This document shows positions 11,392 through 28,896 of a DNA stretch of 64,000 nt, piece after piece (positions within the stretch are counted from its first letter, which is position 1; each line of letters opens with the position of its first letter). A program made the position numbers and the translations under genes. Location of the stretch: positions 787-64,786 of the forward strand of contig NZ_QUHR01000011.1 in NCBI RefSeq assembly GCF_003479605.1. The letters run 5' to 3'. Source of the stretch: Roseburia sp. AF12-17LB. Lineage in GTDB: Bacteria > Bacillota > Clostridia > Lachnospirales > Lachnospiraceae. The notes beneath the pieces are model-generated. The model saw only the letters and a program-made list of their open reading frames with translations, searched no databases and had not been told where the DNA came from.

Positions 11392-11464
11392 GGGATATTA
11401 GCTCAGTTGGTAGAGCACTTGACTTTTAATCAAGTTGTCCGGGGTTCGAATCCCCGATGTCTCA
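11392..11464 (+). tRNA. tRNA-Lys (TTT), integration target
   Basis: Acceptor GGGATAT pairs with ATGTCTC (G-U pairs allowed), discriminator A. Anticodon loop CTTTTAA gives TTT. Bases 11404-11464 recur exactly at 28836-28896, so the 3' part of this tRNA was supplied by the integrated element and the gene stays intact. Confidence 0.96.
11404..11464 (+). repeat. Left attachment site (attL core), 61-bp direct repeat
   Basis: 61 bases identical to 28836-28896. They run from the D-loop (CAGTTGGTAGAGC) to the last base of tRNA-Lys. The flanks diverge at once on both sides (TTATAT here, GTAGTT at the right copy). This is the normal signature of a tyrosine integrase using a tRNA 3' end. Confidence 0.95.
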
Positions 11465-11475
11465 TTATATGGGAA

Positions 11476-11507
11476 AACTCATTGCTTTTAGTGATGAGTT
11501 TTTTTAT
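11476..11507 (+). terminator. Element-encoded terminator behind tRNA-Lys
   Basis: AACTCAT (11476-11482) pairs with ATGAGTT (11494-11500) and runs into T9. It lies just inside the element, so it replaces the chromosomal terminator now displaced to 28903-28948. Confidence 0.75.
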
Positions 11508-11571
11508 TGTATTCGTATAACCTTCTCACTTAAATTTAGAGGTCAAGCACACAGAAAGTGAGGTTGTTATT

Positions 11572-12507
11572 ATGAAACAAATCCAAATGAACAAATCTAA
11601 AAATTTATCTGTAAATGATGCTTATGATTTATTTATCAGAAAGTGTCGTGTCAAGAATTTATCCCAAGCATCTATTGTGTCATACGAGAATAAGATTCAT
11701 CCGTTTGTAGATTACTGTGAAGGTGGTCTTATCAGTGCGGTTACAATCGACACAGTGGATGGATTTACCAATCATCTTAAAACAGAACATAATGTGAATG
11801 ATGTATCTGTCGTATCTTATTTACGGTCTGTGAGAGCGTTCCTATATTATTGCATGGAATGTAACTACATGACCTCGTTCAAAATTCATCTTCCAAAAGC
11901 ACAGAAGGACATTAAGGAAACTTACTCGAATGAACAGTTGGAGAAATTATTAGCCAAGCCAGACCTCAATAGTTGCTCTTTTACGGAGTTTAAGACATGG
12001 GTGTTTGAAAACTATATGCTTGCTACTGGAAATCGTCTCAGTACGGCTTTAAACGTCCATATCAAGGACATTGACTTTGATAATGGAATGATTATGTTGC
12101 GTAAGACAAAGAACCGTAGACAGCAGTTAATCCCACTCTCAGCGTCTTTATCTGAGATATTGAGAGAGTATCTTGATATTCGTGGTGGAAATCCTGATGA
12201 TTTTCTTTTCTGTAATAACTATGGTGAGCAAGCCAGTAACAGGACATGGCAGACATTGGTATATCGCTACAACATTAAGCATGGTGTCAATGTCACAAGT
12301 ATACATTCATTCCGACATACTTTCGCAAAAAACTGGATTCTCTCAGGTGGTGATATTGTAAGATTAAAGACCATCATGGGACACAGTAATATTGCAGTCA
12401 CGAATGAATATCTTGCTATGTTTGGTCAGGATTTGCAGATGGACTTTGAAAAATTCAATCCATTAGATAATATGAAGAACAAAAACAGAGAACAAATCAG
12501 AATGTAA
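11572..12507 (+). CDS. int: Tyrosine site-specific integrase
   Basis: The 311-residue product has an N-terminal SAM-like core-binding domain (about 15-105) and a catalytic domain with the full set of active-site residues. These are Arg in ATGNRLSTALNV, Lys in RKTKNRRQQLI, His-x-x-Arg in IHSFRHTFAKNW, His in IMGHSNIAVT, and the nucleophile Tyr in NEYLAMF. It begins 108 bp after the tRNA-Lys att site with GAGG before the ATG. The orientation away from tRNA-Lys is usual for tRNA-targeting elements. It would catalyse integration and, with an accessory protein, excision. Confidence 0.95.
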   Translation: MKQIQMNKSKNLSVNDAYDLFIRKCRVKNLSQASIVSYENKIHPFVDYCEGGLISAVTIDTVDGFTNHLKTEHNVNDVSVVSYLRSVRAFLYYCMECNYMTSFKIHLPKAQKDIKETYSNEQLEKLLAKPDLNSCSFTEFKTWVFENYMLATGNRLSTALNVHIKDIDFDNGMIMLRKTKNRRQQLIPLSASLSEILREYLDIRGGNPDDFLFCNNYGEQASNRTWQTLVYRYNIKHGVNVTSIHSFRHTFAKNWILSGGDIVRLKTIMGHSNIAVTNEYLAMFGQDLQMDFEKFNPLDNMKNKNREQIRM

Positions 12508-12521
12508 AGGAGAATATCATA

Positions 12522-12665
12522 ATGAAGAAATGGATTAAGGCAAATAACGGAAGATCAACACAGGTGATTGAATTTAATGATGGCTCAAAGATGGAACTGC
12601 CATTAGATAATCATGGAAATTTAAAATGGTTTGATGATGAATTATTAAGGAAGGAGAATAAATGA
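12522..12665 (+). CDS. Small 47-residue element protein
   Basis: This ORF starts 14 bp after the integrase stop behind AAAGGAGAATATC and ends in an ATGA overlap with the next gene. The product is charged (MKKWIKANNGRSTQVIEF, ending ELLRKENK). It has no recognisable family. The ATGA overlap indicates translational coupling to the Ig-domain protein. It could be an excisionase-sized or minor structural protein; neither is supported by motifs. Confidence 0.65.
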   Translation: MKKWIKANNGRSTQVIEFNDGSKMELPLDNHGNLKWFDDELLRKENK

Positions 12666-13810
12666 ATTATGCGAATGTATTTGGTCGTACCCAGAAACAG
12701 TTTGATATGACCATGAATCGAGAAAAAATCACAGTTGCAGATTTCTTCAACTCTGATATTAAATATAATGTATTCTTCCGTAGGAATCAGCGTAGTACAA
12801 CACCACAGGGCAAGGTTAGATTCTTCTATGCTCAGAGTACACCTATTCATATTGGAACTATCTTTGTACTGAACGGAAGTAATTTTATTGTAACTTCTCA
12901 GGATGGAATTGAGAGTGATATATATTTCACTTCTATTGCAGTCAGAAGTGATATGACCTATAAGGTTAAGACAGATAAGGGTACTGCCAGTATTCCATTT
13001 GTTGTAGTATCTGACAAGTGGACTGTGGCTCATGGAACTATTACACAGTTGTATGGTGCAGTAGCTTTATATACTGGTTATAACAGTGCAGTGGAGAATA
13101 TAAAGGTGAATGATTCGTTTAGAGGATTTGGCAACTATTACAAGGTTGGGAATACCTTTAAGAATAATAATCTGTTCTATATGTATTTGGAGCAGACGCA
13201 AGCACCGATTGACAACTATAAGATGAAATATACTGGTGTAACCTCATTTGATCTGAAGGAGAGCAACACATATCAGTTGACTTATTCCGTGACCAACAAT
13301 GGGAATGTTGTAGAGAATCCACATATATCATATAAATCTTCTAATGTTGAGATTGCTACAGTTGATGATAATGGTCTTATGACTATGCTTCAAGAAGGTT
13401 CAGTTGATATTGTTGCTTCATGCGGTGGTGCTACCTGTACAACAACTATGGCTATTTCAGACACAACACAGAAAGTCAATTATACAACGAGCATATCAAC
13501 ATCTACAGATACTATTAAGATTGGTGGCTCTTATAAGACACTTACTTGTCTGTTTGCTGATAAGAATGGACAGGATATAACAGAAACAGTTGTTGCCGAT
13601 ATGACAACTGCTGACTTTACATGGACTTGTTTCATTGATGGAACTGAATATACAAATGATTCTATGGTCGTTTGGTATAAGGGTTCGTCTACTAATAGCA
13701 AGAGAATGAAGTTGACTTCTGCTGCACAGAGTTATCTTGCACATACAATCACTATCAAGTGTACAGTCAACGGTGTAACAGCAAGTAAAAATTTGGAAAT
13801 GACTGAGTAG
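12662..13810 (+). CDS. Putative virion protein with Ig-like (Big_2) domain
   Basis: The 382-residue protein has no signal peptide. Residues 1-100 (VRFFYAQSTPIHIGTIFVLN, then SNFIVTSQDGIESDIYF) look like a small beta-barrel similar to phage head-closure/stopper proteins. About residues 192-265 form a bacterial Ig-like Big_2 domain (SYKSSNVEIATVDDNGLMTM, EGSVDIVASCGGATC). A further beta-rich domain follows. Ig-like domains are common on phage capsids, necks and tails, where they bind sugars or cell surfaces. The neck assignment is inference from fold-like pattern and from the absence of other neck genes. It is coupled to the 47-residue gene. Confidence 0.65.
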   Translation: MNYANVFGRTQKQFDMTMNREKITVADFFNSDIKYNVFFRRNQRSTTPQGKVRFFYAQSTPIHIGTIFVLNGSNFIVTSQDGIESDIYFTSIAVRSDMTYKVKTDKGTASIPFVVVSDKWTVAHGTITQLYGAVALYTGYNSAVENIKVNDSFRGFGNYYKVGNTFKNNNLFYMYLEQTQAPIDNYKMKYTGVTSFDLKESNTYQLTYSVTNNGNVVENPHISYKSSNVEIATVDDNGLMTMLQEGSVDIVASCGGATCTTTMAISDTTQKVNYTTSISTSTDTIKIGGSYKTLTCLFADKNGQDITETVVADMTTADFTWTCFIDGTEYTNDSMVVWYKGSSTNSKRMKLTSAAQSYLAHTITIKCTVNGVTASKNLEMTE

Positions 13811-14599
13811 AAACACTAAAATGTTCGAAGCAAACATCCCCATTTTTGCCTTATATATCAGGTGATTATGGGGATGTTGGAATAAAAATTCGTTTCCTTT
13901 GAATGTATAGAAGAGAAACGCTTAAATGTTTGAAAAACTCAATCTCGTGAACCCTTGATTTATAAGGCTTTTTGGCATATTTTTACAAAAAATTTGATTT
14001 CCTTAAATGTATAGTAATAAGTGTAAATTAGGAAAAGCTAAAAGTCGTGTAGCCCTTGATTTTACAAGGTTTACAACAACCATGTCCGTTTTTCTTATTA
14101 TGTAAGAGAGAGTATAAATGTTCGATTTAGAAACTCTTATATTTCCTAGCATTTTCAAGCCTTTAAGCACAATTTTATTTTTCTGTATCTTATGGTAGGA
14201 AGATAAGTTTTGCATAAAAATATGAGGTGGTCTACTTTGTTCTTTTATAAACCCTTATAAAATAAGCAAATTTTGGATTTCTCTATTTTGAGAAAATGAC
14301 ATAAAGGGAAGGACGATAAAAGAAGTTTTGCATAAAAATTTTTTATTTTCCTCACCCAATTCCCCAAAACCCTTGCTACATAAGCATTTCAGCGATTTCC
14401 CAAAAATGAGAAAACGGACTAAGGGGGACGAGTAAAAATAAAAAATGTAGTAGCTAGGCTTTTGTTAAAAATTCGACCATAAATATTGGGTTATTATATT
14501 TTATCAAAAAATCCATAGTCCATTGAATATGGTCGAAAAATACCCATCAAATGTTTCTTTTAGGGAAGAGTAAAAAAATAAAATTAGAAAGGACACAAT
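13811..14599 (+). repeat. Untranslated degenerate repeat region, part 1
   Basis: A 789-bp AT-rich stretch without a credible gene. It holds spaced copies of the core CCTTGATTTATAAGG, an imperfect CCTT-N7-AAGG palindrome: 13849 (variant), 13953-13967 (exact), 14054-14069, about 14252 and about 14371. Several are followed by a TTTTTACAAAAAATT stretch and then CTTAAATGTATAG. A second motif, CCATAGTCCATTGAATATGG plus TCGAAAAA, lies at 14513-14540 and recurs in part 2. Spacing is irregular and copies are diverged, so this is not CRISPR. Confidence 0.75.
13834..13878. other. Inverted repeat after the Ig-domain gene
   Basis: ACATCCCCAT (13834-13843) pairs with ATGGGGATGT (13868-13877) around a 24-base loop that holds the first CCTTATATATCAGG core. 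There is no U-tract, so it is not a typical terminator. Confidence 0.5.
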
Positions 14600-14950
14600 A
14601 TGAAGACAATAACACATGATGAAATAATGAAAGAACTTATAGGAGAGATGGAACGTCAGCATATTTCCAAAGTTGAAACAGAATATATAATGCGACATTA
14701 TGAAGACATAGTTAATCGTTATTTAAGAAATACAGATGATAAGGAAGAAGATTTAAAGATAAAAATTATGAGTGGTATTACTTTAGAGCGTCAGTATATT
14801 CCTGAACAGGTGATGCAGAAAGGAATGTTTAAAGGGAAGATTATAAAAGAACATTTTAATATAAAAGCGTCTGTGTCGAAATATCTAAAGGATTTTACGA
14901 ATAAATGGTGCTTTAAAGAAGGATTCCGCAAAGAATGGATAAATAGATAG
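14600..14950 (+). CDS. 116-residue element protein inside the repeat region
   Basis: The ORF has a good AGAAAGGACACAAT ribosome site. The product starts with a helix (THDEIMKELIGEMERQH). A segment follows (KIKIMSGITLERQYIPEQVM, then FKGKIIKEHFNIKASVSKY) that recalls small HU-like or nucleic-acid-binding folds found in Firmicutes phages and plasmids. That resemblance is weak. Its position between two repeat blocks makes binding to those repeats an attractive but unproven idea. Confidence 0.65.
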   Translation: MKTITHDEIMKELIGEMERQHISKVETEYIMRHYEDIVNRYLRNTDDKEEDLKIKIMSGITLERQYIPEQVMQKGMFKGKIIKEHFNIKASVSKYLKDFTNKWCFKEGFRKEWINR

Positions 14951-16339
14951 ATATTGGTAATGTAGACATATCAAATCTTCCATAAATATTGGAATGTGAA
15001 AATCCATTTCTTCTATAAATTATGGAACAAGTTTTGTGGCTATATGGAGAACTGGCAAATAATTGTCATTTTCATCCGCTGTTTATGGAAGAATTTTAAA
15101 TCACATAGGAGAGGGTAATTACAAAAAACATGCAAAATGCGAAATTGAGTAAGTCTTAGATAACGAATTTCGTGACCAAATTTATTTTACATAGGAGAGG
15201 GTAGTTTTCTGGATTTAGCTTATGTCCCACCAGTTGATAATGCCCAAAAATCAATACTTTTAGAAAACCATAGTCCATTATATATGGTCGAAAAAGTAAT
15301 ATCATTTGTGGCTATATGGAGAATAACATATCATGCACAAAAATATTCGGCAACTATGCACGATTATTTTGTTATTGTTTCCCAAAACCCTTGATTTTAT
15401 TGGCTTTCAGGATTTGCTTAACGTCCGTTATATGGAAGGAAGAAAAATTTTTGCGGAACGGAGTTGTTGAAAATGTAGTATTTTCAATAGTTTAATGGGT
15501 ATCAAATGAGGGTGTTATATGGAGACGAAAAAAATTCGCATCCAAAATAGACTATTTTCGTGCAGACATAATTATTTTGACATACAGAAAACATAGCAGT
15601 ATCAATAGTTTTAGAGATTGCCGAAAAGTGAACTTATGAGGAGAAAGAATCTAATAGAAAAGCAGATAAAAAGTATAAAAATAAGATGCGAGAAAATAGA
15701 AAATCCGATTTTTCCTTATAAAATAAGGTTTTATTGGTGTTTTTGTGTAGCTATATATCACTAATGGAAAACAATGAAATCGTCATAAAATAGAAATGGA
15801 CTTGTTTGATTTAGAAAATCCTTATATCTCCTATGGTTTACAAGACTTTACGGCTGTTTTTGCGGTGTTATATATCATATATGGAATACAATGTATATAA
15901 CCACAAATAGAAATAGACTTGTAGCGAAATAGAAATCCTTATATTTCCTACAATTTATAAGGACAAAATGATGTTTTTATGGTGTTATATATCACATATG
16001 GAAAACAATGTGAATGAGAAACGTTAATGTGTGAAGTTTCTTACAACTCCGAAAATCCTTGATACATAAGGTTTTCAAAGTACATTTTCAAAAAAATATG
16101 TTTTTCTTAAATGTATAGAAGAAAGGCGATTTTGGAATAAAAGCCTAATACCCTACAAACCTTGATTTATAAGGCTTTCAAGGTACTTTTTACAAAAAAT
16201 TCGTTTTTCTTAAATGTAGAAAGAAACTAGATTTTGTCGATAAATAGAAAATCTTCAAAATCATTATATATCAATGGTTTTCTGGCATATTTTTATAAAA
16301 AATTAGATTTTCTTAAATGTAGAAAGAAGAAATTATTTA
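14951..16339 (+). repeat. Untranslated degenerate repeat region, part 2
   Basis: A 1.39-kb AT-rich region with at least four repeat families. (1) CCTTGATTTATAAGG-type cores at about 15387, 15714-15728, 16057-16071 and 16160-16174, the last two about 103 bp apart with similar 3' flanks ending CTTAAATGTA. (2) GTGTTATATATCACATATGG-like boxes at about 15750, 15865 and 15980. (3) CATAGGAGAGGGTA at about 15105 and 15191. (4) A second copy of the CCATAGTCCATT box at 15268-15287. No ORF here has a convincing start site. It ends at a UUCG terminator, which suggests it is transcribed to the right. Confidence 0.75.
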
Positions 16340-16367
16340 GGAGCATACTTCGGTATGTTCCTTTTTT
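16340..16367 (+). terminator. UUCG-tetraloop terminator ending the repeat region
   Basis: GGAGCATAC, loop TTCG, then GTATGTTCC, followed by T6. Nine base pairs with one G-U. It is placed 145 bp before the scaffold gene. Confidence 0.9.
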
Positions 16368-16511
16368 GATGAAACAAAGTTGCGTAGATTTGGTGAGTGC
16401 AAAATTTTCGCTCACACCAATTTACATATATAACAAACACACAATGTATTGTGGGGCGTAAACATGAACTCAGTGAGGGCATGATAGAGCAACACAGGAA
16501 GGAGTAATTTA

Positions 16512-17006
16512 ATGGAACTTAATATTGAAGGATTAACACAGGAGCAGATTGAAGCAGTAACAAAGTTAGTACAGTCAGAAACAGATAAGGTCAGAACAAA
16601 GTACAGTTCGGAACTTAAAACTGTCAATGATGAATTAGCACAGTACAAACCTGCGGAGAAATCTGATGCAGAAAAAGCTTTAGAACAGCGTATAGCTAAT
16701 CTTGAAGCAAAGGAAAAGGAAGTAGCCAATAAGGAAAGAGCAATGACGATTGCCGATAAACTTAAAGCTAAAGGACTTCCTAGCGAACTGGCACAGTATC
16801 TTAATGTTGGTGAGGATATTGATGGCTCGATTGATAAGGTAGGTGACGCACTCGGCAACTACTTTCTCGGACAGGTATCAAATCCCAGTGGCAATCACGC
16901 TACCAACAAAGGAATCACCAAAGCCGATTTCGCCAAAATGTCCTACTCTGAAAGAGCAAAACTTTTTCAGGAGAATAATGAACTTTATAAAGCACTTAGT
17001 AAATAA
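16512..17006 (+). CDS. Phage capsid scaffolding protein
   Basis: The 164-residue, strongly helical and charged protein is typical of phage scaffold (GP20/DUF4355-like). It has an N-terminal MELNIEGLTQEQIEAVTKLV, a central coiled coil (KALEQRIANLEAKEKEVANK), and a C-terminal helical segment (KADFAKMSYSERAKLFQENN) of the kind that contacts coat protein. It starts after GGAAGGAG. Only a small putative holin gene separates it from the capsid gene. Confidence 0.85.
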   Translation: MELNIEGLTQEQIEAVTKLVQSETDKVRTKYSSELKTVNDELAQYKPAEKSDAEKALEQRIANLEAKEKEVANKERAMTIADKLKAKGLPSELAQYLNVGEDIDGSIDKVGDALGNYFLGQVSNPSGNHATNKGITKADFAKMSYSERAKLFQENNELYKALSK

Positions 17007-17030
17007 GGACTGTTAAGCAGTTCTTTTTTT
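17007..17030 (+). terminator. Short hairpin with T7 between scaffold and holin-like genes
   Basis: GGACTG (17007-17012) pairs with CAGTTC (17018-17023), then T7 and ATTG. It begins right after the scaffold stop codon. It may attenuate rather than fully stop transcription, because the following genes lack a clear promoter. Confidence 0.65.
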
Positions 17031-17052
17031 ATTGTGCGGAAAGGACTGACAA

Positions 17053-17334
17053 ATGGATGTAAACACAATCCAAACTGCCATAAGTACGCTTGGCTTTCCT
17101 ATCGTGTGTGTTCTTTTCTTGGGTTGGTTCATCTGGAAGATCTGGATGAGTCAGCAAGACCAGAACAAAGAGCGAGAGGATAAGTTATATGAGTATCTTG
17201 GCAAAGCACAGGCGGTCAATGAAGAGTTGACCAAAACTAATTCAGAATTTGTAAACGTATTAAATACATACAAATCTGATTTGGACACTATCAAAAATGA
17301 TGTAACAGAAATTAAACAAAACATGAAAGGTTAA
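17053..17334 (+). CDS. BhlA/UviB-type holin-like small membrane protein
   Basis: The 93-residue protein has one N-terminal membrane helix (about 9-30, STLGFPIVCVLFLGWFIWKI). A charged coiled-coil tail follows (REDKLYEYLGKAQAVNEEL). This architecture is typical of BhlA/UviB holin-like proteins. No endolysin is encoded nearby, and finding it between scaffold and capsid is unusual. It could instead act on membrane potential or release in combination with a helper phage. The ribosome site is GGAAAGGAC. Confidence 0.75.
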   Translation: MDVNTIQTAISTLGFPIVCVLFLGWFIWKIWMSQQDQNKEREDKLYEYLGKAQAVNEELTKTNSEFVNVLNTYKSDLDTIKNDVTEIKQNMKG

Positions 17335-17348
17335 TAAGGTGAATTTAT

Positions 17349-18280: not shown

Positions 18281-18520
18281 ATGTTAGACGGAACAGTATT
18301 ACAAAGATTAAGAATGAGGTCGGGCAAGACATTAGTGCAAGTGGCTGATTGGTGTAATGTATCTAAGAGGTACATCATTTATATTGAACAGAATAAAGAA
18401 GTGCCAAGCGAAGAAACATATGAAGCTTATCTGAACTGTGTCTACGGTCTTGGAAAGCCACTGCCACATGAGCCACGATGTAATCAGACCTCTAGGAAAA
18501 AGAAGTCGGGTGATGAGTAA
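18281..18520 (+). CDS. Small XRE-type HTH regulator
   Basis: The 79-residue protein is a lone helix-turn-helix of XRE type: VLQRLRMRSGKTLVQVADWC and NVSKRYIIYIEQNKEVPSEE, then a basic tail (TSRKKKSGDE). It starts after AAGGAAGGAC and its stop codon shares one base with the next ATG. It probably regulates element genes; whether it is a Cro-like or antirepressor-like factor cannot be told. Confidence 0.75.
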   Translation: MLDGTVLQRLRMRSGKTLVQVADWCNVSKRYIIYIEQNKEVPSEETYEAYLNCVYGLGKPLPHEPRCNQTSRKKKSGDE

Positions 18521-18987
18521 TGGGATTATTCAGCAGAATTTTTGGCGGTAAGTCAGTCAAATCAGTAGCACAAAACGCATCATTTCTTGGTGCTTATCGT
18601 GAAGCAGGTGGACAATCCTATGACGGTGGTGGATGGGGATTAGACCGATTCAACAGTATCATAGATGCTCACTCTTCCATAGACGATATGATTGAGGAAT
18701 GGGGACTTGCTGATGAAGGTTGTCGGTATCAGTCATTAGATGGATATTCTAATCCGTACACACAAGCGTACCGTGAAGAAAGAGAACGTGCAGAAGAAGA
18801 AGCGGAAATCCTTGCAATGTTCGGAGAAGAGATTAATGTAGAACTCTTAATAGATTGGGACACTGTAGAAGAGAACGCTTATGAGTATGCAGAAGAACTT
18901 GCACAGGCATGGCTTGATGGAGATGAATGGATTCCAGAAGAGATTATGGACTGGGCTTGGTACGACTTGTCAGATCATAATTTATAA
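18520..18987 (+). CDS. Highly acidic 155-residue protein of unknown function
   Basis: The start ATG overlaps the previous stop (TAATG). By eye it has about 36 Asp/Glu against about 9 Lys/Arg. The acidic residues are concentrated in the C-terminal half (REERERAEEEAEILAMFGEE, ELLIDWDTVEENAYEYAEEL). The N-terminus is Gly-rich (AGGQSYDGGGWGLD). I recognise no family. Net charge and position between two HTH genes would suit a DNA mimic or antirepressor partner, which is inference only. Confidence 0.65.
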   Translation: MGLFSRIFGGKSVKSVAQNASFLGAYREAGGQSYDGGGWGLDRFNSIIDAHSSIDDMIEEWGLADEGCRYQSLDGYSNPYTQAYREERERAEEEAEILAMFGEEINVELLIDWDTVEENAYEYAEELAQAWLDGDEWIPEEIMDWAWYDLSDHNL

Positions 18988-21416: not shown

Positions 21417-22658
21417 ATGAAGGAAATTATATTAAATACAGAATACACATACAAACAGTTGTGTGAATTATTAGGATGGAAAAATTATTCAGGTGGTAAT
21501 GGCAAGAAAGCACAAATCAAAGAGATAGAATCTTCATTTGAATTTTATCATCCTATAAATAAGAAAACTCACAAGGAGAAGAAGTCATATATCTTTACAA
21601 AGCAGTTGAAAGATTTGGTCGAGCCATCAGTTCAGAACAATGGTGGTAGTAATAATAAGAAGAATATTACACCTATGATGGATTATCTTCTTCGTATTGC
21701 AAGCGAAAAAGAATTTAATGTTGGTACTGATATGACATTAACTCACTGGTTCTGCGGCAGTGCAGGTCTTGACTTAATGGATAGGGATATATATGTTGAA
21801 CAGTTTGGCTCAGATGAAGAGTTAGCGACATTTTGTGCTGAGTATCATATCTCTAAGCCGAGATTATTTCGTGAGTACATGGGAATTATTAGAAAGCATA
21901 CAAAGGATATATTCTTAAAAGCTTTAGAGGTCATGGCTAAGAAAAATTTAGTCAAGTACATAGATGGTTATGAGTTCTATTACAAGATGAATAAACGTGG
22001 TCGCATGGGAAATATATTCACAGATGAGTTGAATGATACAGTGCATGGTCTTGAAGAGAAGTATTGTAATGAACTCAATGATGCTTACAATCTCAGTCAG
22101 AAGATGGCAGGTAGACGATTACTTATGTGTATAAATAGAAAGCCGGAGATTAAGGATGAGTTTGATGATTTTATGAATAATGATTTGAATGTTGTTCCTG
22201 TGTGGGATATTCTCAACGTGCGTATTGATGAAGAATATAAATATAGTTGTCATGTAGATGATGAACATAGTATTCAATCATATTATCGTGCAATCGAAAT
22301 TGATATGATAGAAGATACAATCAATCAGGACTGTGATAAAGACGGTCTTGCAACAGCCGTTACAAATGTTATTCGCAGAGTGAGTCGCCGGGAATTACTC
22401 AATAAGAAGTGGAAAGATAAATATGGAAATGTTCATATGACTTATGACTCTTGGGAAGATGCTACTGATATAGTGGCTATTGAGAAATTATTATTCACAC
22501 ATTTTGATGAGGACTTTGATGATGGAACGTCACTTGATTTAGCGGTACTTGATAATGAATTAAAGGATTTTTTATTGGATGACGTTTCCCAAAATGGAAA
22601 CACTGATGGATTAACGGAAGAAGAAAACAGATTATTTGATAGGGTGTCTATTGCATAG
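21417..22658 (+). CDS. 413-residue element protein, possible replication or DNA-binding protein
   Basis: The N-terminal ~65 residues (TEYTYKQLCELLGWKNYSGG, KKSYIFTKQLKD) match a winged-helix-like module common in Firmicutes phage proteins. It is often followed by variable regions and often linked to replication or regulation. The middle is helical (DELNDTVHGLEEKYCNELND). The C-terminus is acidic (FDEDFDDGTSLDLAVLDNEL). It is the largest protein of the left regulatory block and the best candidate for a replication initiator, by elimination. No helicase or primase motif is present. Confidence 0.5.
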   Translation: MKEIILNTEYTYKQLCELLGWKNYSGGNGKKAQIKEIESSFEFYHPINKKTHKEKKSYIFTKQLKDLVEPSVQNNGGSNNKKNITPMMDYLLRIASEKEFNVGTDMTLTHWFCGSAGLDLMDRDIYVEQFGSDEELATFCAEYHISKPRLFREYMGIIRKHTKDIFLKALEVMAKKNLVKYIDGYEFYYKMNKRGRMGNIFTDELNDTVHGLEEKYCNELNDAYNLSQKMAGRRLLMCINRKPEIKDEFDDFMNNDLNVVPVWDILNVRIDEEYKYSCHVDDEHSIQSYYRAIEIDMIEDTINQDCDKDGLATAVTNVIRRVSRRELLNKKWKDKYGNVHMTYDSWEDATDIVAIEKLLFTHFDEDFDDGTSLDLAVLDNELKDFLLDDVSQNGNTDGLTEEENRLFDRVSIA

Positions 22659-22724: not shown

Positions 22725-22874
22725 ATGAGAAAGAAAGATTTAATTGCAGAGAACAAAAAATTAAAAGATGAGGTTGAAGATTTAAAGCGTCAGTTGACAT
22801 ATGCAAAGACACAAATAGATATAAAGGATATTTGCTTGATGCTTAATAAGGAAAGAGAGGTATATCATGACTAA
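22725..22874 (+). CDS. 49-residue coiled-coil protein
   Basis: The ATG at 22725 follows GAAAGTGAGGAAC. The product MRKKDLIAENKKLKDEVEDL plus KRQLTYAKTQIDIK is a continuous heptad coiled coil. It overlaps the start of the small terminase gene by 8 bases. It may be a terminase or scaffold accessory protein; this is inference from position. Confidence 0.55.
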   Translation: MRKKDLIAENKKLKDEVEDLKRQLTYAKTQIDIKDICLMLNKEREVYHD

Positions 22875-23286
22875 GGAAAAGACAATTATGCAAGCATTAA
22901 CAGAGGTTGTTCCTAATTATCTTGCGTCATATCTTTGTTGGTATTACTCTGATCCGAATAAAAGAATCAGTTGGGATGAACTTTGTAAATCAGATGCTAA
23001 CTTTAGAAGTAAAAGCGGTGGGAATAAAACAGAAGATTTTGCAGAACAGAACTGGCTCATTCGTGATGATGTTCAGAAAGCAATGATTATCTATTTGCAG
23101 TATATGAAGCGTTATAACTTTATGAAAAGGTATCAAGAGATGAATAAGAAAGCATTAAGCGGTGACGTGAACAGTGCCAAGTATGTTGATGAGATGGATA
23201 AGATTCTGGACAAGATGAGCGTTGATAAATCTACAGAAGATGAGATTGGTAAGCTCTTACAGGGGGTGAATATCAATGTCAATTAG
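22867..23286 (+). CDS. Putative small terminase subunit (TerS)
   Basis: The 139-residue helical protein is encoded directly before the large terminase and overlaps it by 11 bases. It has an N-terminal helical region (IMQALTEVVPNYLASYLCWY), a central WLIRDDVQKAMIIYLQYMKR and a C-terminal tail (MSVDKSTEDEIGKLL). Size and position match TerS, which recognises the packaging site and feeds DNA to TerL. The sequence itself shows no diagnostic motif. Confidence 0.6.
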   Translation: MTKEKTIMQALTEVVPNYLASYLCWYYSDPNKRISWDELCKSDANFRSKSGGNKTEDFAEQNWLIRDDVQKAMIIYLQYMKRYNFMKRYQEMNKKALSGDVNSAKYVDEMDKILDKMSVDKSTEDEIGKLLQGVNINVN

Positions 23287-24862
23287 TTTAGATACTGCCA
23301 AGAAATTAAATTGGTTATGGAAAGACGAAAACAAGATTGCATGGATAGAAACCTTTATTAAGATTGCTGATAAGGATGGAAATATTGTTCCTTTTATCTT
23401 GACTGATGAACAGAGAAAACTTGTTGAGAATTTGGCTCATCAGAATATCATAAGCAAGTCAAGACAGTTGGGAATTTCTGTAGTAACAGTAGCCCTCAGT
23501 ATTAGGGCATGTGTGGTAAATCCAAATACTAACTGTGTGCTTATATCACATAATCAGTCCAGTACCAATGCCGTGTTTGATAAATTAAAGCAACAGTTCT
23601 ATTCATTACCCGATTGGGTAAGACCTAAATTGATACAGAATAATAGACAGGCACTTACATTTGAGAATGGTTCTTCTATTGTGTGTATGACAGCAGGTAA
23701 CAAGGATTGTGGACGTGGCAGCACGTACTCTGGTGGAATAGTGCATTTATCAGAGTTTGCGTTTTGGAAAGACCAACAGAGACAGTTAAAATCTATTATG
23801 CAGGCGGTTACATCATCATCTACAGTCATAATTGAGTCAACATCAAATGGCTATAATGAATATTCAAATTTATTTTTACAAGCAAGGAATGGGGAGAATG
23901 CGTTTAAACCATTCTTTTTTAATTGGATAAATGGACGTTCATTATTTAAGTCACAGTACGATGAATCAGTGAAATTGTATAAGGCACAACATGGTGGAAA
24001 GATGCTTACTGAGGATGAATACGATGAGGAAGAAAAAGCACTCGCTAAGTTAGGTATGACACCAGAACAAGCAGTGTGGAGAAGAGATAAAATTTCTATT
24101 AGTGGACTTGACGCATTTCATGTGGAATATCCAAGTACACCAGAAGAATCATTTCTTGCTACTGGTTCATCTGTATTTGATAACAATAAGGTCATTAAAT
24201 TACAACAGGCATTAACGAGCCAAAAAATAAGCCCGTTAAAAGTAGATAAGATAGTTGGTCTGCCACAGATACTTAGACCTTATGTACAGAATAAATCACT
24301 TGATATATATAAAGTGCCAAGAGTCGGCATGAAATATTACATAGGTGTGGACGTATCGGAAGGACTTGGAGGTAAACATGACTATTCTACTATGTTTGTA
24401 ATGGATAAGGATGGTGAGCAAGTAGCGGAGTTCCATAATAATAAGGTACAGCCATATCTCTATGCAGATATATGTAATGCAGTCGGACGCTTCTATAATA
24501 AAGCTTTGCTCTGTGTCGAGAAAGCATCAGGCGGTCATTCTGTTATTGAGAGATTGAGATATGAGCATAAGTATATGAACATGGTTAAGTATAAGACCTA
24601 TGATGAATATAATCGTGCTATATGGAAAGTCGGATTCGATACAACGCAGAAGTCAAAAAACATTGCAGTCAATGATGCTCGTGAGTGGTTTGACAAGAGC
24701 ATGGTGCGTATTATGAGCAATAATCTTTTAGAGGAAATGAAAACATTTGTTGCAGAAGAGAATGGTTCATTTAATGCGGTTGTCGGCTGTCATGACGATT
24801 TAGTGTCAGCATTTTGGCTCTGTATTCAGGGCATGAAGAGTGGTTTCTGGTATCCATTCTAA
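23276..24862 (+). CDS. terL: Phage large terminase subunit (TerL)
   Basis: The 528-residue packaging motor has a diverged Walker A (SKSRQLGISVV, about 62-72), a Walker B-like VHLSEFAFW (about 159-167) and the coupling motif IESTSNG (about 184-190). Its C-terminal RNase H-type nuclease has three acidic clusters: GVDVSEGLGGKHD (about 358), CVEKASGG (about 414) and GCHDDLVSAFW (about 505). The ribosome site AGGGGGTG is strong. It drives DNA into preformed heads and cuts it. The motor is complete, which argues for active packaging by the element itself. Confidence 0.93.
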   Translation: MSISLDTAKKLNWLWKDENKIAWIETFIKIADKDGNIVPFILTDEQRKLVENLAHQNIISKSRQLGISVVTVALSIRACVVNPNTNCVLISHNQSSTNAVFDKLKQQFYSLPDWVRPKLIQNNRQALTFENGSSIVCMTAGNKDCGRGSTYSGGIVHLSEFAFWKDQQRQLKSIMQAVTSSSTVIIESTSNGYNEYSNLFLQARNGENAFKPFFFNWINGRSLFKSQYDESVKLYKAQHGGKMLTEDEYDEEEKALAKLGMTPEQAVWRRDKISISGLDAFHVEYPSTPEESFLATGSSVFDNNKVIKLQQALTSQKISPLKVDKIVGLPQILRPYVQNKSLDIYKVPRVGMKYYIGVDVSEGLGGKHDYSTMFVMDKDGEQVAEFHNNKVQPYLYADICNAVGRFYNKALLCVEKASGGHSVIERLRYEHKYMNMVKYKTYDEYNRAIWKVGFDTTQKSKNIAVNDAREWFDKSMVRIMSNNLLEEMKTFVAEENGSFNAVVGCHDDLVSAFWLCIQGMKSGFWYPF

Positions 24863-24909
24863 TCGGAATAATTATTAACAGAATAGGGAATTTAGGACTT
24901 TAATGACGT

Positions 24910-24940
24910 TAGGTATAGATTTATATGCCTAGCTTTTTTT
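24910..24940 (+). terminator. Terminator between terL and portal
   Basis: TAGGTATA (24910-24917) pairs with TATGCCTA (24924-24931), then GC, T7 and ATTG. Confidence 0.75.
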
Positions 24941-24985
24941 ATTGTCTATTTTCCCTATTGTAACAGTAAATAGAAAGGAAGAAAT

Positions 24986-26329
24986 ATGACAATACAAGAA
25001 TATATAGATAAGCAGTATGATGGTTCTGCTACTTGGTTCATGGAAGAAGTTAATCAGAAGAATCATGTGGCTAGAATTGCAGGTGTTGTAGCCAACATGG
25101 ATTATCTTGCAGGACGACATAAAGTATTAAGCAGAGAAGATTGCTATTACAAAGGTAAGGTATTAAGGACACGTAAGACTATATTGAATTATGCTAAGAC
25201 AGTGCTACGATTCCATGATACATTTCTGCTTGGAAAGAAGGTTTCATTAAGCTCAAAGGATAATGAGACAGTTAATACATTCAATGATATTTATAGGCTT
25301 GGTCAGTACGAGACAGTTGACTATCAGATACTTGACAGAGTAAATAAGTTTGGTGACGCATATGAGGTTGTATATATTGATAATGGAGTGATTAAGAGTA
25401 AAGTGCTTGATAGTGCTTGTAGTTATCCTGTGTATGATGAGTTGGGAGAGTATCTTGCTTTCATTGAGCATTGGACAGATGTATTTACAAGTATCACTTA
25501 TTGGAATGTATATTATCCTACATACGTTGAGCATTGGAGTAATGAGGGTGCAGATGAGCATTTAGTATCTACTACTATGGCTATTGGTCTGCCTATCCAC
25601 TATCATAATTTCAGTGATGAAGATTATAATTATGGTATGAGTATGCTTACGGACATTAAACCTATCCTTGACGAATTAGAGGACATTATGAGCAAGATGG
25701 GTGATGCTATTTATGTTAATTCACTCAATCCTATGAATGTAGCTATCGGACAGAGAATAGAGAGTTCAATTCCTGCTGATGCGGTTGGATATGTACTTAA
25801 CTTGGATGCAGGTGACTATAAGGTAGTCAGTGCGTCTATGGATTATAATACGATTAAATTGTATCTGGATAACCTTAAACAGATGCTCAATGATATTAGT
25901 TGTATTCCTAGTGTGTTAGGTTCTAGTACCAATATAGCTAATGTTAGTTCCGTTGCTATGCAGATATTGTATGCTATGGCTCAGGTCAATGCAGATGAGA
26001 CTAAGAAGTGGCTTAATATTGGATTCAGAGAGAGATTTGAGAGATTTAAGAAGATACTGAGTATGCAGGGCATTAGTGTAGAGAGTGACGTTGATGTTAT
26101 CTATAATGTGTCTATGCCAGTTGCTACTACTGAAATGATTGCTAATCTGAAGGCATTGCAGGAAATGGGAGCAATCTCAAAGGAAACAATTATGGAAAAG
26201 AGTGACATTGTCAGTGATGTAGAGGTTGAAAAGAAGAGGTTGAGTGGTGAAAATGTAGTTAGCCTCCAATCGGAGGCAAAGCGCAAAACCACTGATAATG
26301 TGGATAACTCTGTGGATAACTTAGCATAA
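24986..26329 (+). CDS. Phage portal protein (SPP1 gp6-like)
   Basis: The 447-residue protein matches SPP1-type portals. Markers are LAGRHKVLSREDCYYKGKVL near the N-terminus, RVNKFGDAYEVVYID, a wing region with FSDEDYNYGMSMLTDIKPIL, the long helix KLYLDNLKQMLNDISCIPSV, and a C-terminal hydrophilic tail (ERFERFKKILS and beyond). Portals form the dodecameric ring for DNA entry and tail attachment. It starts 123 bp after terL. The last codons contain two of three DnaA boxes. Confidence 0.9.
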   Translation: MTIQEYIDKQYDGSATWFMEEVNQKNHVARIAGVVANMDYLAGRHKVLSREDCYYKGKVLRTRKTILNYAKTVLRFHDTFLLGKKVSLSSKDNETVNTFNDIYRLGQYETVDYQILDRVNKFGDAYEVVYIDNGVIKSKVLDSACSYPVYDELGEYLAFIEHWTDVFTSITYWNVYYPTYVEHWSNEGADEHLVSTTMAIGLPIHYHNFSDEDYNYGMSMLTDIKPILDELEDIMSKMGDAIYVNSLNPMNVAIGQRIESSIPADAVGYVLNLDAGDYKVVSASMDYNTIKLYLDNLKQMLNDISCIPSVLGSSTNIANVSSVAMQILYAMAQVNADETKKWLNIGFRERFERFKKILSMQGISVESDVDVIYNVSMPVATTEMIANLKALQEMGAISKETIMEKSDIVSDVEVEKKRLSGENVVSLQSEAKRKTTDNVDNSVDNLA

Positions 26330-26340
26330 ATTGTGGATAA
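26299..26340. other. Cluster of three perfect DnaA boxes
   Basis: TGTGGATAA (reverse complement TTATCCACA, the DnaA consensus) occurs at 26299-26307, 26311-26319 and 26332-26340, all in the same direction. Two lie in the portal 3' end and one just after it. An AT-rich stretch follows further right (26930-27060). This is a candidate replication origin. Confidence 0.65.
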
Positions 26341-26364
26341 CTTTAGTTGAGTGAAGTTAAATTA

Positions 26365-26414
26365 GCGTCTATATGTGGTATTTCAATATAAATATGCACA
26401 CTATATATAGACGC
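26365..26414 (+). terminator. Long inverted repeat after the portal gene
   Basis: GCGTCTATAT (26365-26374) pairs with ATATAGACGC (26405-26414), with further partial pairing inside. It is followed by ATTTTGC only, so termination strength is unsure. Confidence 0.5.
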
Positions 26415-27303
26415 ATTTTGCTTTACAAACCACTTGGTTTAGTGGCTAAACGCATCAAAACTGGACAAATTGACAAATCCAACAATAAATTCGGTCTGAT
26501 TTGCGATATGACACTGTACTGTGCTAAAGTAATCTGGATTGTAGATACATCAGACACAATTCTATATTCATCAGGCAGAAAAGAGTGGTTAATAGTGTAG
26601 TATTGTACACTGTTCCAAACTGGTGCTACGGTATTTCCACATTTTTCCGTGGGATTAGGGGGTATCAGATGGGGATATAATCAGAAGAAATCTCGATTTC
26701 CTTGGCTTACATTCACTTGACTATCAATCAAGTGAGCGTTTTAGGGGTGATTTGAGCCGATAATGGGGTTAAATGTGACCAGATGTAGGGTGATAGAGCG
26801 TAAAATTGCTCTGTACTAATCCATTGTGCAATATGTACAAAGTGGTGAATAGATGTTCGTTGTGCAATACGGAGAAAATACAGTGCTATTTTTGTGCAAA
26901 GTGACGGAACGATTCAGAGCAAATTTATTTAAAGATTTGTGAATTTCTGAAAAAACTTCAAAACAATTTGGTTTATTGTCAGACAATTAAAATATTAAAT
27001 TTTTGTGAATTTTTTGCGTTACCCCTTGACTTCAAAAATTTTTTTCCTTAATCAGAAAAATCCCCACAGAGCAATTTTAGGGTACACATTATCTGTGTAA
27101 CCTGACACAACCTAAGTCGGCATATCGCCCCCTTTAGGATATGGGGATAATTCAAATCCGAAAGTTTCGGAATTGCCAGAGCCGAATTATTCGGTTCTGC
27201 CAAAAGAAAAAATTTTTACTTTGCCAAAAACATCAAACGACCATCAAGGTTTACCAAATTTGGTGTAAGTCCAAAATAAAATAAGATGCCCGAACAGGAC
27301 ACC
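26415..27303. other. Non-coding, hairpin-rich region (possible origin or structured RNA)
   Basis: This 0.9-kb stretch has no convincing gene; a 75-residue ORF starting at 26373 lacks a ribosome site. It contains many self-complementary segments: TCACTTGA-TCAAGTGA (near 26711-26733), GGTACACA-TGTGTAACC (near 27081-27102), CCGAAAGTTTCGG (near 27158), CAGAGCCG-CGGTTCTG (near 27177-27200) and ACCAAATTTGGT (near 27253). There is also a near-pure AT tract around 26930-27060. The combination of DnaA boxes, AT-rich DNA and hairpins fits a replication origin. A large structured RNA is the alternative. Confidence 0.55.
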
Positions 27304-27594
27304 TTACTTCCTCAACTTATCTACTAACTGTGAAATCAGTTCCACGGATTCATCATCAAGACCAGTAACATCCACATTCCTCTTATCAGTAATTCCTAAG
27401 AGATAATCTGTAGATACATGGAATATACGAGCCAACTTTATCAATGCTTCATATGAAGGATAACGACTGCCTGATTCATAGGAAGATACAGCACTTATGG
27501 CTAATCCTATTCTATCTGCTACTTGCTTTTGAGTTAATTTCTTCTCAGTTCTGAGAGATCGTAGTTTTTCTCCCATATTCACCAACTGTATCAC
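27304..27594 (-). CDS. CI-like XRE repressor
   Basis: The 96-residue protein on the minus strand has a clear N-terminal helix-turn-helix (KLRSLRTEKKLTQKQVADRI, then GLAISAVSSYESGSRYPSYE). A conserved RIFHVSTDYLLGITDKR segment follows, with a short C-terminal helix. There is no peptidase domain, so it is not a LexA-type self-cleaving CI. Internal ATG 27576 is an alternative start. It is the only clear minus-strand gene of the element and faces the lipoprotein gene, as a lysogeny repressor would. Confidence 0.85.
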   Translation of the reverse strand: MIQLVNMGEKLRSLRTEKKLTQKQVADRIGLAISAVSSYESGSRYPSYEALIKLARIFHVSTDYLLGITDKRNVDVTGLDDESVELISQLVDKLRK

Positions 27595-27603
27595 CTACTT
27601 TCA

Positions 27604-27698
27604 CTGATAGTGTATCAATTAGTATTTTTGTTGTGGTGTAATAAAATACACAAATACGGAAATATTGTATTGAAAATGCCTACAGTTAATGGTACAAT
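27604..27698 (+). promoter_or_regulatory. Divergent regulatory region with operator-like palindromes and a promoter
   Basis: The rightward promoter is TTGAAA (27670-27675), a 17-bp spacer and TACAAT (27693-27698). Upstream are GTGTA-N6-TACAC (27636-27651) and GATA-GTG-TATC (27606-27616), plausible repressor sites between the repressor gene and the 27750 gene. Confidence 0.65.
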
Positions 27699-27749
27699 TT
27701 ATATAACATCTAGGAAATTAGTACAGTGATTTGAAAGGGGGCTATTTTT

Positions 27750-27977
27750 ATGAGAAAGAAATTTATCAAAGGAATTGTTCTTACATTAACTTGTTTAGGA
27801 ATGATGGGTTTATTTACGGCATGTTCCAGCGATGATGAGTATAGAGATACTTTGAATAGTGGTCTTGATAAATACTATAATAATGAAGACATGACAAAAC
27901 AAGAACATGATGCTGTTGAAAATTTCAATAATTGGAAAGATAAACAAGGCGAAAAAAAATACAGCGATTGGGACTGA
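27750..27977 (+). CDS. Small lipoprotein
   Basis: The 75-residue product has a basic N-terminus, a hydrophobic segment and a lipobox-like GLFTACSS (Cys at about residue 25). The mature part is polar (DDEYRDTLNSGLDKYYNNED). The start follows GAAAGGGGGC. It is the first gene to the right of the repressor promoter region, so it could be expressed in the integrated state. Superinfection-exclusion lipoproteins occupy such places in some prophages, but there is no sequence proof here. Confidence 0.75.
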   Translation: MRKKFIKGIVLTLTCLGMMGLFTACSSDDEYRDTLNSGLDKYYNNEDMTKQEHDAVENFNNWKDKQGEKKYSDWD

Positions 27978-28001
27978 TTGGTAATAAGGAGATGTAAAAG
28001 T

Positions 28002-28295
28002 ATGAAGATTACACATAATGATGCAGTTGTTTTGGAAGGAATTGTTTGTAATTTATATAATGGAGCACGTCAAGGGTCAATGGGTGGTATTATAGAAGCA
28101 AGTCATTTTGAAAGAAACCCATTTCATGCTGCTCTTATCTGCATTTCTAAATTATATTCTGGAATGTTTGATGATAAGATAGATCAATTCGTATGTACAT
28201 GGGAAACTGTATTTAATTATCCTGATGAAAATCAGGAATATACAATAGAACAGTATATTAAGGAACTTAGAGAATTGATTTCAATATTGAAATAA
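28002..28295 (+). CDS. 97-residue element protein of unknown function
   Basis: The ATG at 28002 follows TAAGGAGATGTAAAAG. The product is mixed helix (KITHNDAVVLEGIVCNLYNG, FHAALICISKLYSGMFDDKI, EYTIEQYIKELRELISILK) with no known motif. It follows the lipoprotein by 24 bp and probably shares its transcript. Confidence 0.6.
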   Translation: MKITHNDAVVLEGIVCNLYNGARQGSMGGIIEASHFERNPFHAALICISKLYSGMFDDKIDQFVCTWETVFNYPDENQEYTIEQYIKELRELISILK

Positions 28296-28320
28296 GAAAA
28301 TAATTGATTATCATAAGAGA

Positions 28321-28350
28321 GGTCTACGGTAAAATGCCGTAGTCCTTTTT
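28321..28350 (+). terminator. Short terminator
   Basis: CTACGG (28324-28329) pairs with CCGTAG (28337-28342), followed by TCC, T5 and ATTG. Confidence 0.7.
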
Positions 28351-28380
28351 TATTGCATATAATAATGAAAGGAGACACAC

Positions 28381-28725
28381 ATGAAAGTATTAGACAGATT
28401 AAAGATGGAGTTATCCAATCAACAGTATTTCTCTGATGAGCAGTATATCCAGTTCCTTACAGAGAACTCATTAACTCAGACAGATGAATATGATAAATCA
28501 ACAATGCAGAAGTCATTGCTATTTACTGTTGTTGATGTACTTGAAGCCGTTACAAATGATATAGATTTAATGACAGGTATCAGTACAGAGTTCTCTAATA
28601 TCGGACAAGCATATGAGTTTTTAGAAGCAAGAATACAACAGGTGAAAGATAAGATTGCAGCCATTCCAGATGAGAATGAGGACTATAATTGTTTCTCACT
28701 GATGTATACGAGAGATAGAATTTAG
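28381..28725 (+). CDS. Putative head-tail adaptor (connector) protein
   Basis: The 114-residue, mostly helical protein (VLDRLKMELSNQQYFSDEQY, SLLFTVVDVLEAVTNDIDLM, AYEFLEARIQQVKDKIAAIP) fits the size and helical plan of phage adaptor proteins that sit under the portal ring. The start follows AAAGGAGACACAC. In the integrated form it is far from the other neck candidate. In the excised circle it would lie just upstream of attP and int. Motif support is modest. Confidence 0.5.
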   Translation: MKVLDRLKMELSNQQYFSDEQYIQFLTENSLTQTDEYDKSTMQKSLLFTVVDVLEAVTNDIDLMTGISTEFSNIGQAYEFLEARIQQVKDKIAAIPDENEDYNCFSLMYTRDRI

Positions 28726-28728
28726 CAG

Positions 28729-28757
28729 TTGACACAGATGGATTTTTAGTGTATTCT
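28729..28757 (+). promoter_or_regulatory. Outward-facing promoter at the right end of the element
   Basis: TTGACA (28729-28734), a 17-bp spacer and TATTCT (28752-28757). It points across the att core. After circularisation it would read into the integrase gene; while integrated it reads into the displaced chromosomal terminator. Confidence 0.7.
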
Positions 28758-28835
28758 ATGGATAAGTCACAGATAGTTATACGAATTATCAATAAAAAAG
28801 TTATATGAGTTTCTTGATTACAAGGGAGTTGCCTA

Positions 28836-28896
28836 CAGTTGGTAGAGCACTTGACTTTTAATCAAGTTGTCCGGGGTTCGAATCCCCGATGTCTCA
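28836..28896 (+). repeat. Right attachment site (attR), truncated tRNA-Lys copy
   Basis: 61 bases identical to 11404-11464. The sequence upstream (GGGAGTTGCCTA) does not complete a tRNA acceptor stem, so this is a 3' fragment and not a working tRNA. Confidence 0.95.

Follow-up and report, generated by a model that had tools for sequence, protein, structure and literature searches.

The analysed stretch of Roseburia sp. AF12-17LB (contig NZ_QUHR01000011.1, 64,000 nucleotides; hereafter the window) carries at a tRNA-Lys gene a conserved capsid-encoding mobile element that has no tail module and is not a remnant. The window copy is integrated and belongs to a family of mobile elements that encode heads and candidate necks without a tail module. 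We think it probable that it is a phage satellite that uses the tails of helper phages, and we infer that both tails and lysis are borrowed from such a helper. The element is 17,432 bp long, measured as the period between two direct repeats of tRNA-Lys that an initial annotation of the window had described as perfect and that are indeed exact over 61 bp; the longest exact repeat shared by random 300-nt pieces of the window was 13 nt in 300 draws. Its left repeat lies within an intact tRNA gene, the sixth and last of a six-tRNA cluster found by ARAGORN, and the right repeat is a 3' fragment that scores 36.9 bits as an Rfam tRNA compared to 72.7 bits for the left copy. The G+C content of the element is 34.9%, with 39.8% in the left and 41.9% in the right flank. 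A public virus record of 17,785 bp (L050) is letter-identical to window positions 11572-29356 and therefore provides no independent evidence.

Between these repeats we found the integrase, complete TerL, portal, scaffold and coat genes named by the initial annotation, each confirmed by Pfam and/or PHROG matches (Table 1). The gene before TerL remains a TerS candidate, as it had been called, which has no database match and is proposed on the grounds of its size, its overlap with the TerL start and its presence in 43 of 44 family members. The only minus-strand gene of the element identified by homology is a candidate CI-type repressor. Pfam and PHROG scans covered the open reading frames (ORFs) of the element apart from those below ~55 amino acids (aa), a few of 59-75 aa (at 15316, 16234 and 26373) and most antisense ORFs. 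Among the scanned ORFs there was no match to a tape measure, tail tube, terminator, baseplate, endolysin, protease or polymerase, in line with the initial annotation, and no cell-wall-degrading virion protein or fibre was recognised. TerL is the longest ORF of the element, leaving no space for a normal tape measure. The immunoglobulin (Ig)-domain part of a protein that we call IGPROT matches one PHROG annotated as tail protein (11922), and the sole lysis-like gene found encodes a small protein matching UviB-like families and, weakly, holins (0.0019 and 0.0092 in the PHROG scan). No protease family that could provide head maturation appeared in the scanned ORFs, of which the 413-aa protein is the largest without assignment, and no HNH endonuclease was matched (three ORFs of 57-67 aa were scanned with PHROGs only). 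The coat has no Pfam match at E 0.01 and hence none to PF05065, the family of the capsid tree of capsid-forming phage-inducible chromosomal islands (cf-PICIs) in PMC13230959.

Table 1. Features of the integrated element and its boundaries, in window coordinates.
Feature	Position	Strand	Evidence
Intact tRNA-Lys (TTT), integration target, contains attL	11391..11465	+	ARAGORN; exact repeat
attL, 61-bp exact direct repeat	11404..11464	+	repeat comparison
Tyrosine integrase, 311 aa	11572..12507	+	PF00589 7.9e-29; PHROG 1 2.2e-34
IGPROT, 382 aa, neck/stopper candidate	12662..13810	+	PHROG 16444 8.5e-12, 11922 'tail protein' 4.1e-6, 215 'structural protein with Ig domain' 3.4e-5; Big_2
Mostly non-coding AT-rich stretch with modular direct repeats	13850..16480	.	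repeat analysis
Small ORF, 116 aa, no family	14600..14950	+	no PHROG or Pfam match
Capsid scaffold, DUF4355/gp46-like, 164 aa	16512..17006	+	PF14265 4.7e-7; PHROG 172 (head scaffolding) 3.4e-11
Small UviB/holin-like membrane protein, 93 aa	17053..17334	+	PHROG 9829 2.3e-13; PHROG 1625 2.2e-7
Major coat protein, 289 aa	17349..18218	+	PHROG 544 (major head protein) 1.1e-31; PHROG 267 6.9e-16; no Pfam match
Helix-turn-helix (HTH) regulator, 79 aa, after coat	18281..18520	+	HTH_31 1.2e-8
155-aa protein, no family	18520..18987	+	no PHROG or Pfam match
Small HTH protein, 57 aa	19015..19188	+	PHROG 725 1.2e-4
DHH-phosphoesterase-like conserved protein, 305 aa	19334..20251	+	14-member alignment; no PHROG/Pfam match
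413-aa protein, no family	21417..22658	+	no match; position of replication-type genes in relatives
TerS candidate, 139 aa	22867..23286	+	position and conservation; no family match
TerL, 528 aa, Terminase_6-type	23276..24862	+	PF17289 1.5e-10, PF03237 6e-8; PHROG 2 2.8e-31
Portal, SPP1 gp6-type, 447 aa	24986..26329	+	PF05133 2.8e-50; PHROG 64 5.5e-42
CI-type HTH repressor candidate	27304..27594	-	HTH_3 5.7e-17; PHROG 8 1.5e-24
c114, 114-aa helical protein, head-tail adaptor candidate	28381..28725	+	family conservation; structure model
attR, 61-bp exact direct repeat, 3' fragment of tRNA-Lys	28836..28896	+	repeat comparison; Rfam weaker tRNA

Relatives were collected by IMG/VR scans with coat, TerL and the small helical protein c114, by scans of GTDB genomes and by further searches of selected loci. 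After merging of contig pieces this gave 44 members, some of which are fragments or near-copies (L115/L116, L131/L132). Not counted among them are L050, the fragments L009, L014, L019, L022, L029 and L030, the loci L032-L049 (TerL ~22-31% identical, taken as other phages), the short or unfetched c114 loci L076, L079, L081, L089, L093, L098 and L107, and two elements found later (G639 and G820). Gene counts are lower bounds given ORF picking and fragments, and tblastn, for example, finds a c114 in L013, L021 and L025 that ORF picking had missed. Among the 44, we counted TerS in 43, TerL in 43, portal in 42, c114 in 39, and scaffold, coat and IGPROT in 36 each, followed by the integrase (30), the DHH-like protein (28), the UviB-like protein (12), an RNA-polymerase-like protein (9), a tape-measure-like protein (3) and ParA (2). 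All seven head-and-neck genes are present in 28 members, and in each of the 24 of these that consist of a single piece they lie on one strand in the same circular order, namely scaffold, coat, TerS, TerL, portal, c114, IGPROT. The same virion genes in the same order are found even in members with a TerL only ~50% identical (L028). The initial annotation had suggested looking for relatives with the same gene set and no tail genes; a tape-measure-like gene is seen in just 3 of the 44 members, of which some are fragments. Its lineage call of Clostridia is borne out as well, since all named organisms of the relatives (a Blautia metagenome-assembled genome (MAG), a Clostridiales MAG and Agathobacter) belong there.

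Many contigs are fragments, and we therefore rely on the 11 members with defined ends (including G639 and G820, which lie outside the 44). Six are bounded by att-like direct repeats: the window element (61 bp, tRNA-Lys; 17,432 bp), G266 (51 bp, tRNA-Leu; 16,770 bp), G639 (63 bp, tRNA-Arg; 16,607 bp), G820 (L143/L144; 88 bp; 16,334 bp), L059 (53 bp, tRNA-Arg; 17,144 bp) and L054 (17 bp plus 35 bp one base further at the same offset; 16,282 bp). The repeat of G820 presumably represents the 3' end of a spo0A-like gene and not a tRNA. A duplicated tRNA cluster on both sides of G266 gives longer repeats ~18.7 kb apart, and the boundary chosen there is the 51-bp repeat adjoining the integrase. The other five are circular with exact terminal repeats of 127 bp (L055, 18,198 bp; L056, 16,816 bp; L120, 17,986 bp), 99 bp (L131, 14,754 bp) or 53 bp (G436, 34,014 bp); an integrase was not seen in L055, L056 and L120. 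None of the 11 carries a tape-measure-like gene, with G266, G639 and G820 read by purpose-built hidden Markov models (HMMs) and ORF lengths rather than PHROGs. A 262-aa ORF of the G639 locus that matches the tape-measure HMM sits outside the element, and the surroundings of these three are otherwise ordinary chromosome. Ten of the 11 measure 14.8-18.2 kb and one 34.0 kb, which is about twice the smaller class; monomer and dimer headfuls behind the two size classes are conceivable.

These data bear on the reading of the element as a defective prophage, i.e., a decaying tailed temperate phage from which the tail and lysis genes have been lost. Its gene families are those of tailed phages, a tape-measure-like protein exists in 3 of 44 members, and coat or TerL is split in a few others (coat of L054; TerL of L125 and L130). 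Decay is, however, difficult to reconcile with virion genes kept in the same order down to ~50% TerL identity, with circular members, and with the intact frames and exact att repeats of the window copy. Selection points the same way. In pairwise NG86 comparisons among the window element, L051 and L002, the ratio of nonsynonymous to synonymous substitution (dN/dS) was well below 1 for TerS (0.09-0.12), TerL (0.15-0.18), portal (0.13-0.15), scaffold (0.16-0.28) and coat (0.08-0.23) and likewise for the integrase (0.01-0.07), the DHH-like protein (0.07-0.08) and c114 (0.21; window-L051 pair only); gene pairs with an amino-acid identity of 50% or less were left out, and saturation affects several pairs. 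Finite values over nine locus pairs ranged from 0.01 to 0.37, the latter for TerS of L061-L117. The head genes, with 0.08-0.28 in this trio, are thus under purifying selection, as opposed to the relaxed selection on coat and TerL that the initial annotation had raised as a warning sign.

The TerL tree leads to the same result. Among its 40 rows, the window falls into a well-supported clade of 15 rows without tape measures, rows with a tape measure occupy two other places, and members without a tape-measure-like gene, some of them fragments, sit on every main branch. G424 has no such gene though it is sister to G018, which has one (TerL 97% identical). Given these two places and the case of G424, the large tape-measure-like protein looks like a late gain or loss, with absence as the common state in the TerL tree. 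The other concern of the initial annotation, homologous elements with a full tail and lysis module, is likewise not borne out: 3 of 44 members, fragments included, have a tape-measure-like gene. Based on conservation, defined ends, TerL tree and dN/dS, we rejected the remnant hypothesis and consider a decaying prophage highly improbable.

Two further proteins of the conserved virion block, c114 and IGPROT, are candidates for the neck that would close the head. The window copy has c114 at its right end and IGPROT beside the integrase at its left end, so that excision would join them, and in several relatives the two are adjacent. The structure model of IGPROT predicts an N-terminal part of helix and beta domains followed by Ig-like (Big_2) domains (mean pLDDT 86, pTM 0.49), and that of c114 predicts five helices (pLDDT 72, pTM 0.60). 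For c114 there was no PHROG match below 0.01 and no PDB sequence match below 0.1, and IGPROT matched PDB sequences with its Ig domains only, the N-terminal part giving chance-level matches. Position, predicted secondary structure and weak matches suggest c114 as candidate head-tail adaptor and IGPROT as candidate stopper. IGPROT is the fastest-evolving gene of the window-L051-L002 trio (dN/dS 0.27-0.37), as expected of a protein that contacts changing partners.

We further scanned relatives for tail-like parts. Pooled PHROG and Pfam scans are read by the first 25 families listed of 84, 114, 26 and 43, which could hide a tail family matched by a single protein; PHROG scans covered 72 ORFs of L054, L055, L056 and L059 and 113 unassigned ORFs of at least 85 aa from 27 small members. 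In neither of these two sets was a tape measure, terminator or baseplate among the first 25 families listed. Three of the 72 proteins each matched 'major tail protein' and 'minor tail protein', which we attribute to the Ig domains of IGPROT. Five 'tail fiber' families each matched 2-3 of the 113 proteins, one of which is the 583-aa S74 protein of L055. The circular L055 (9556-11307) and L056 (8611-10236) encode related proteins of 541-583 aa at the position of the DHH-like protein, and the L055 protein carries at its end, like tail fibres, an S74 endosialidase-chaperone domain. Giant tape-measure-like proteins are encoded by L058 (3173-11131), L061 (2357-10693) and L134 (6653-12322), in the first two with transglycosylase-like parts beside or near TerS and in L134 between TerL and portal; no tube or terminator genes were recognised with them. 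The 34-kb G436 (L128/L129) and the 38-kb G424 (L117/L118) have no tape measure, and for their 51 ORFs no tail family appeared in the first 25 of the 43 families listed. The domains of this pooled scan (Rep3 initiator, actin-like partition, HNH, PARP and GHKL-ATPase) mark them, by gene content, as plasmid-like forms with cargo.

Several of these observations weigh against a satellite lifestyle. By their sequence matches, some members add tail-like parts: L055 has its S74 fibre-like protein, and G015, G018 and G442 carry tape-measure-like proteins of 1,889-2,778 aa (PHROG 4211 at 2.5e-50 for G015 and 2.4e-43 for G018; purpose-built HMM for G442). Further tail-like parts in these three are a 422-aa tail protein of G442 (PHROG 1887, 1.2e-23), a 98-aa fragment resembling tail fibres in G015 (1.4e-23) and a weak tail-fibre match in G018 (0.0015); no tube or terminator gene was found beside the tape-measure-like proteins among the ORFs scanned there. 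The forms of 34-41 kb exceed what is usual for satellites, coat or TerL is split in the few members named above, and the neck role of c114 and IGPROT is argued from position, predicted secondary structure and weak matches. Tape measures of PHROG 28, one family looked for in few genomes, occurred in 1 of 5 member-bearing genomes compared to 4 of 14 controls, which speaks neither for nor against a helper. From the initial satellite reading we keep the conserved capsid-encoding mobile element without a tail module, which is no remnant, and give up the term 'small satellite' for the family as a whole, which the tape-measure-like and fibre-like proteins and the members of 34-41 kb do not fit.

The larger forms and the fibre-like or tape-measure-like additions may mean that some or all members act alone. 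In this alternative, which we regard as unlikely, they are autonomous tail-less viruses or plasmid-prophages whose HK97-type heads, closed by c114 and IGPROT alone, deliver DNA without a borrowed tail. Such a lineage would span integrated or circular forms of 15-18 kb and plasmid-like ones of 34-41 kb with their own RNA polymerase and an optional S74 fibre or tape-measure-like lytic protein. It would account for the members without a tape-measure-like gene on every main TerL branch, including the circular 34-kb form, for the Rep3 and actin-like partition domains in the pooled scan of G436 and G424, for a candidate YonO/QDE-1-like RNA polymerase in 9 of 44 members, for fibre-like or transglycosylase-containing giant proteins in some, and for the absence of tailed close kin of portal, c114 and the IGPROT N-terminus among 50,697 phage records. 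Yet no lysin, cell-wall-degrading virion protein or fibre was recognised in the window element, the narrow size of 14.8-18.2 kb in 10 of 11 members with defined ends is satellite-like, and to the best of our knowledge there is no tail-less double-stranded DNA phage with this type of head and portal.

Alternatively, the particles could serve the host as gene transfer agents that package host DNA, as described for FpGTA of Faecalibacterium. By its published description, FpGTA I, also from gut Bacillota, likewise brings together TerS, TerL, portal, scaffold and coat, and the purified capsids show no visible or identifiable tails (PMC12946183). According to the same description, FpGTA occupies two dispersed operons, of which the second carries baseplate, fibre and lysis genes; it is near-ubiquitous in its genus and packages ~9-kb host DNA (PMC12946183). 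The family studied here is instead patchy: TerL matched in 2 of 397 genomes sampled from the Blautia MAG's own family, that MAG included, and in 5 of 391 from the class to which G266 belongs; by gene content three of these five, G266 among them, are members. This leaves members in 1 of 396 and 2 of 390 once the centre genomes are excluded. This patchiness, the integrase, att-like sites at different target genes, and the partition and replication genes of relatives fit a selfish mobile element, and we consider a host-serving particle improbable.

For the favoured satellite, we envisage that excision and circularisation would bring c114 from the right end next to the integrase and IGPROT of the left end, that replication would proceed by functions of the element or the host, and that the element's terminase would package its DNA into its own capsid. 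The head could then be closed by c114 as adaptor and IGPROT as stopper, which would present a docking surface for tails supplied, together with lysis, by a tailed phage that resides in the same cell or infects it. The CI-type repressor on the minus strand may keep the element silent.

Other parts of the element are less readily assigned. The 2.6-kb repeat stretch between IGPROT and scaffold contains two families of direct repeats with spacings of ~103 bp and 110-117 bp, and comparable stretches are present in L051 (2283-4075) and L002 (2294-3672). Across 11 aligned repeat units from the window and these two relatives, CTTAAATGTA is unchanged. RNAalifold predicted no base pair in the 11 aligned units of the 103-bp family, and an Rfam scan gave tRNAs alone above the cut-off and one chance match below it. 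The array is perhaps a protein-binding one that serves as origin, partition or packaging site. The DHH-like protein shows invariant DDxD, D, NH and D motifs in an alignment of 14 members, which we take to be reminiscent of DHH phosphoesterases; it has no PHROG or Pfam match, and a PDB sequence search gave chance-level matches only. At the position of the 413-aa protein, relatives encode primase-like, helicase-like or replication-initiation genes according to maps and pooled scans, with a CHC2 finger at 23.9 bits, just below the Pfam cut-off. The RNA-polymerase-like gene found by HMM in 9 of 44 members (e.g., L053 13649-16288, L055 4083-6851, L056 2468-5404 and L060 8852-12202) lies at the place that the repeat stretch between IGPROT and scaffold occupies in the window. 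Its product of 879-1116 aa has an invariant DxDxD triad and is 24% identical (5e-11) to an annotated RNA-dependent RNA polymerase of Enterocloster phage PMBT24, with no match in the PDB sequence search; by these matches it is likely a YonO/QDE-1-like RNA polymerase. To the right of attR (window 30084-34888) lie ordinary chromosomal genes, an ABC-transporter permease and a response-regulator-like ORF recognised by eye. Homologues of the permease have PF02687, and those with names (Frisingicoccus, Dorea, Lachnospiraceae) are only ~40% identical.

Known phages are only distantly related to the family. Against 50,697 phage records, TerL and coat reached at best 29% and 31% identity, respectively, in the rows listed, the portal matched two records (23%), neither c114 nor the DHH-like protein had a match at E 0.01, and the N-terminal part of IGPROT had none at E 1. 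In 72,556 plasmid records, TerL reached up to 31% and the portal matched one record at 24%. The same coat family (PHROG 544) is found in siphophages such as the tailed Staphylococcus phage phiETA, whose record of 43 kb contains a coat 29% identical to that of the window element. The suggestion of the initial annotation that this may be an undescribed family agrees with the lack of close relatives in the phage and plasmid collections searched, and literature on capsid-bearing satellites or on satellites in Clostridia or the gut contained, by titles and abstract starts, no description of it. The c114 profile matched 1,324 protein clusters in 5.8 billion proteins, which makes it a common marker; among 120 listed clusters there was no Pfam domain, the few named ones are hypothetical proteins, and organisms include Blautia and Agathobacter.

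Among described systems, cf-PICIs are defined by coat, protease, portal, connectors, terminases and HNH, build their own heads, use helper tails and are widely distributed across Bacteria (PMC10690885). They average 14 kb, and Clostridia are absent from the main hosts named in PMC10803314; three capsid radiations are mentioned in PMC11389934. Going by these descriptions, the window element resembles them in its integrase and att sites, similar size, own TerS (a candidate here), TerL, portal and coat and lack of tail genes, and presumably also in the use of helper tails. It differs from them in having no recognised head-maturation protease or HNH, in combining a PHROG 544 coat with a DUF4355 scaffold and no PF05065 match (one cf-PICI capsid family compared), in its SPP1-type portal, and in its circular and 34-41 kb relatives. 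Because a protease, an HNH gene and a PF05065 coat were not recognised in it, we do not file it as a cf-PICI, although it would work like one. Where the initial annotation had found the layout unlike known satellites, our comparison covers gene content, which does differ from that description (PMC10690885). The Vibrio satellite-plasmid cf-PISP has capsid, portal, terminases and ParA, with helper tails proposed (PMC13230959). It shares capsid, portal and terminases with the window element but has a PF05065 coat, protease and HNH, was found by its authors only in Vibrio (PMC13230959), and is episomal, whereas the window copy is integrated with an integrase and a ParA-type gene occurs in 2 of 44 family members. 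The Streptomyces satellites MulchRoom and MiniFlayer, of which MulchRoom probably uses the tail of its helper, are similar by their reported terminases, portal, scaffold, coat and head-tail adapter (a candidate here) and differ in sharing an HNH gene and parasitising virulent phages (PMC10690885). No portal match to either was above the cut-off in the phage collection, in which the presence of both records was not checked.

If this reading is true, Clostridia including gut Lachnospiraceae host a family of tail-less capsid-making elements in integrated and circular forms, with a scaffold-type head that dispenses with the protease, HNH and PF05065 coat of described cf-PICIs. Self-made heads combined with borrowed tails would then have arisen again from another head type. 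The family would also provide a clean marker set for tracing the tail-lending phages, which would have a bearing on gene transfer among gut anaerobes. That its gene set recurs in relatives shows the element to belong to a stable type of mobile element, probably one that borrows the tails of other viruses.

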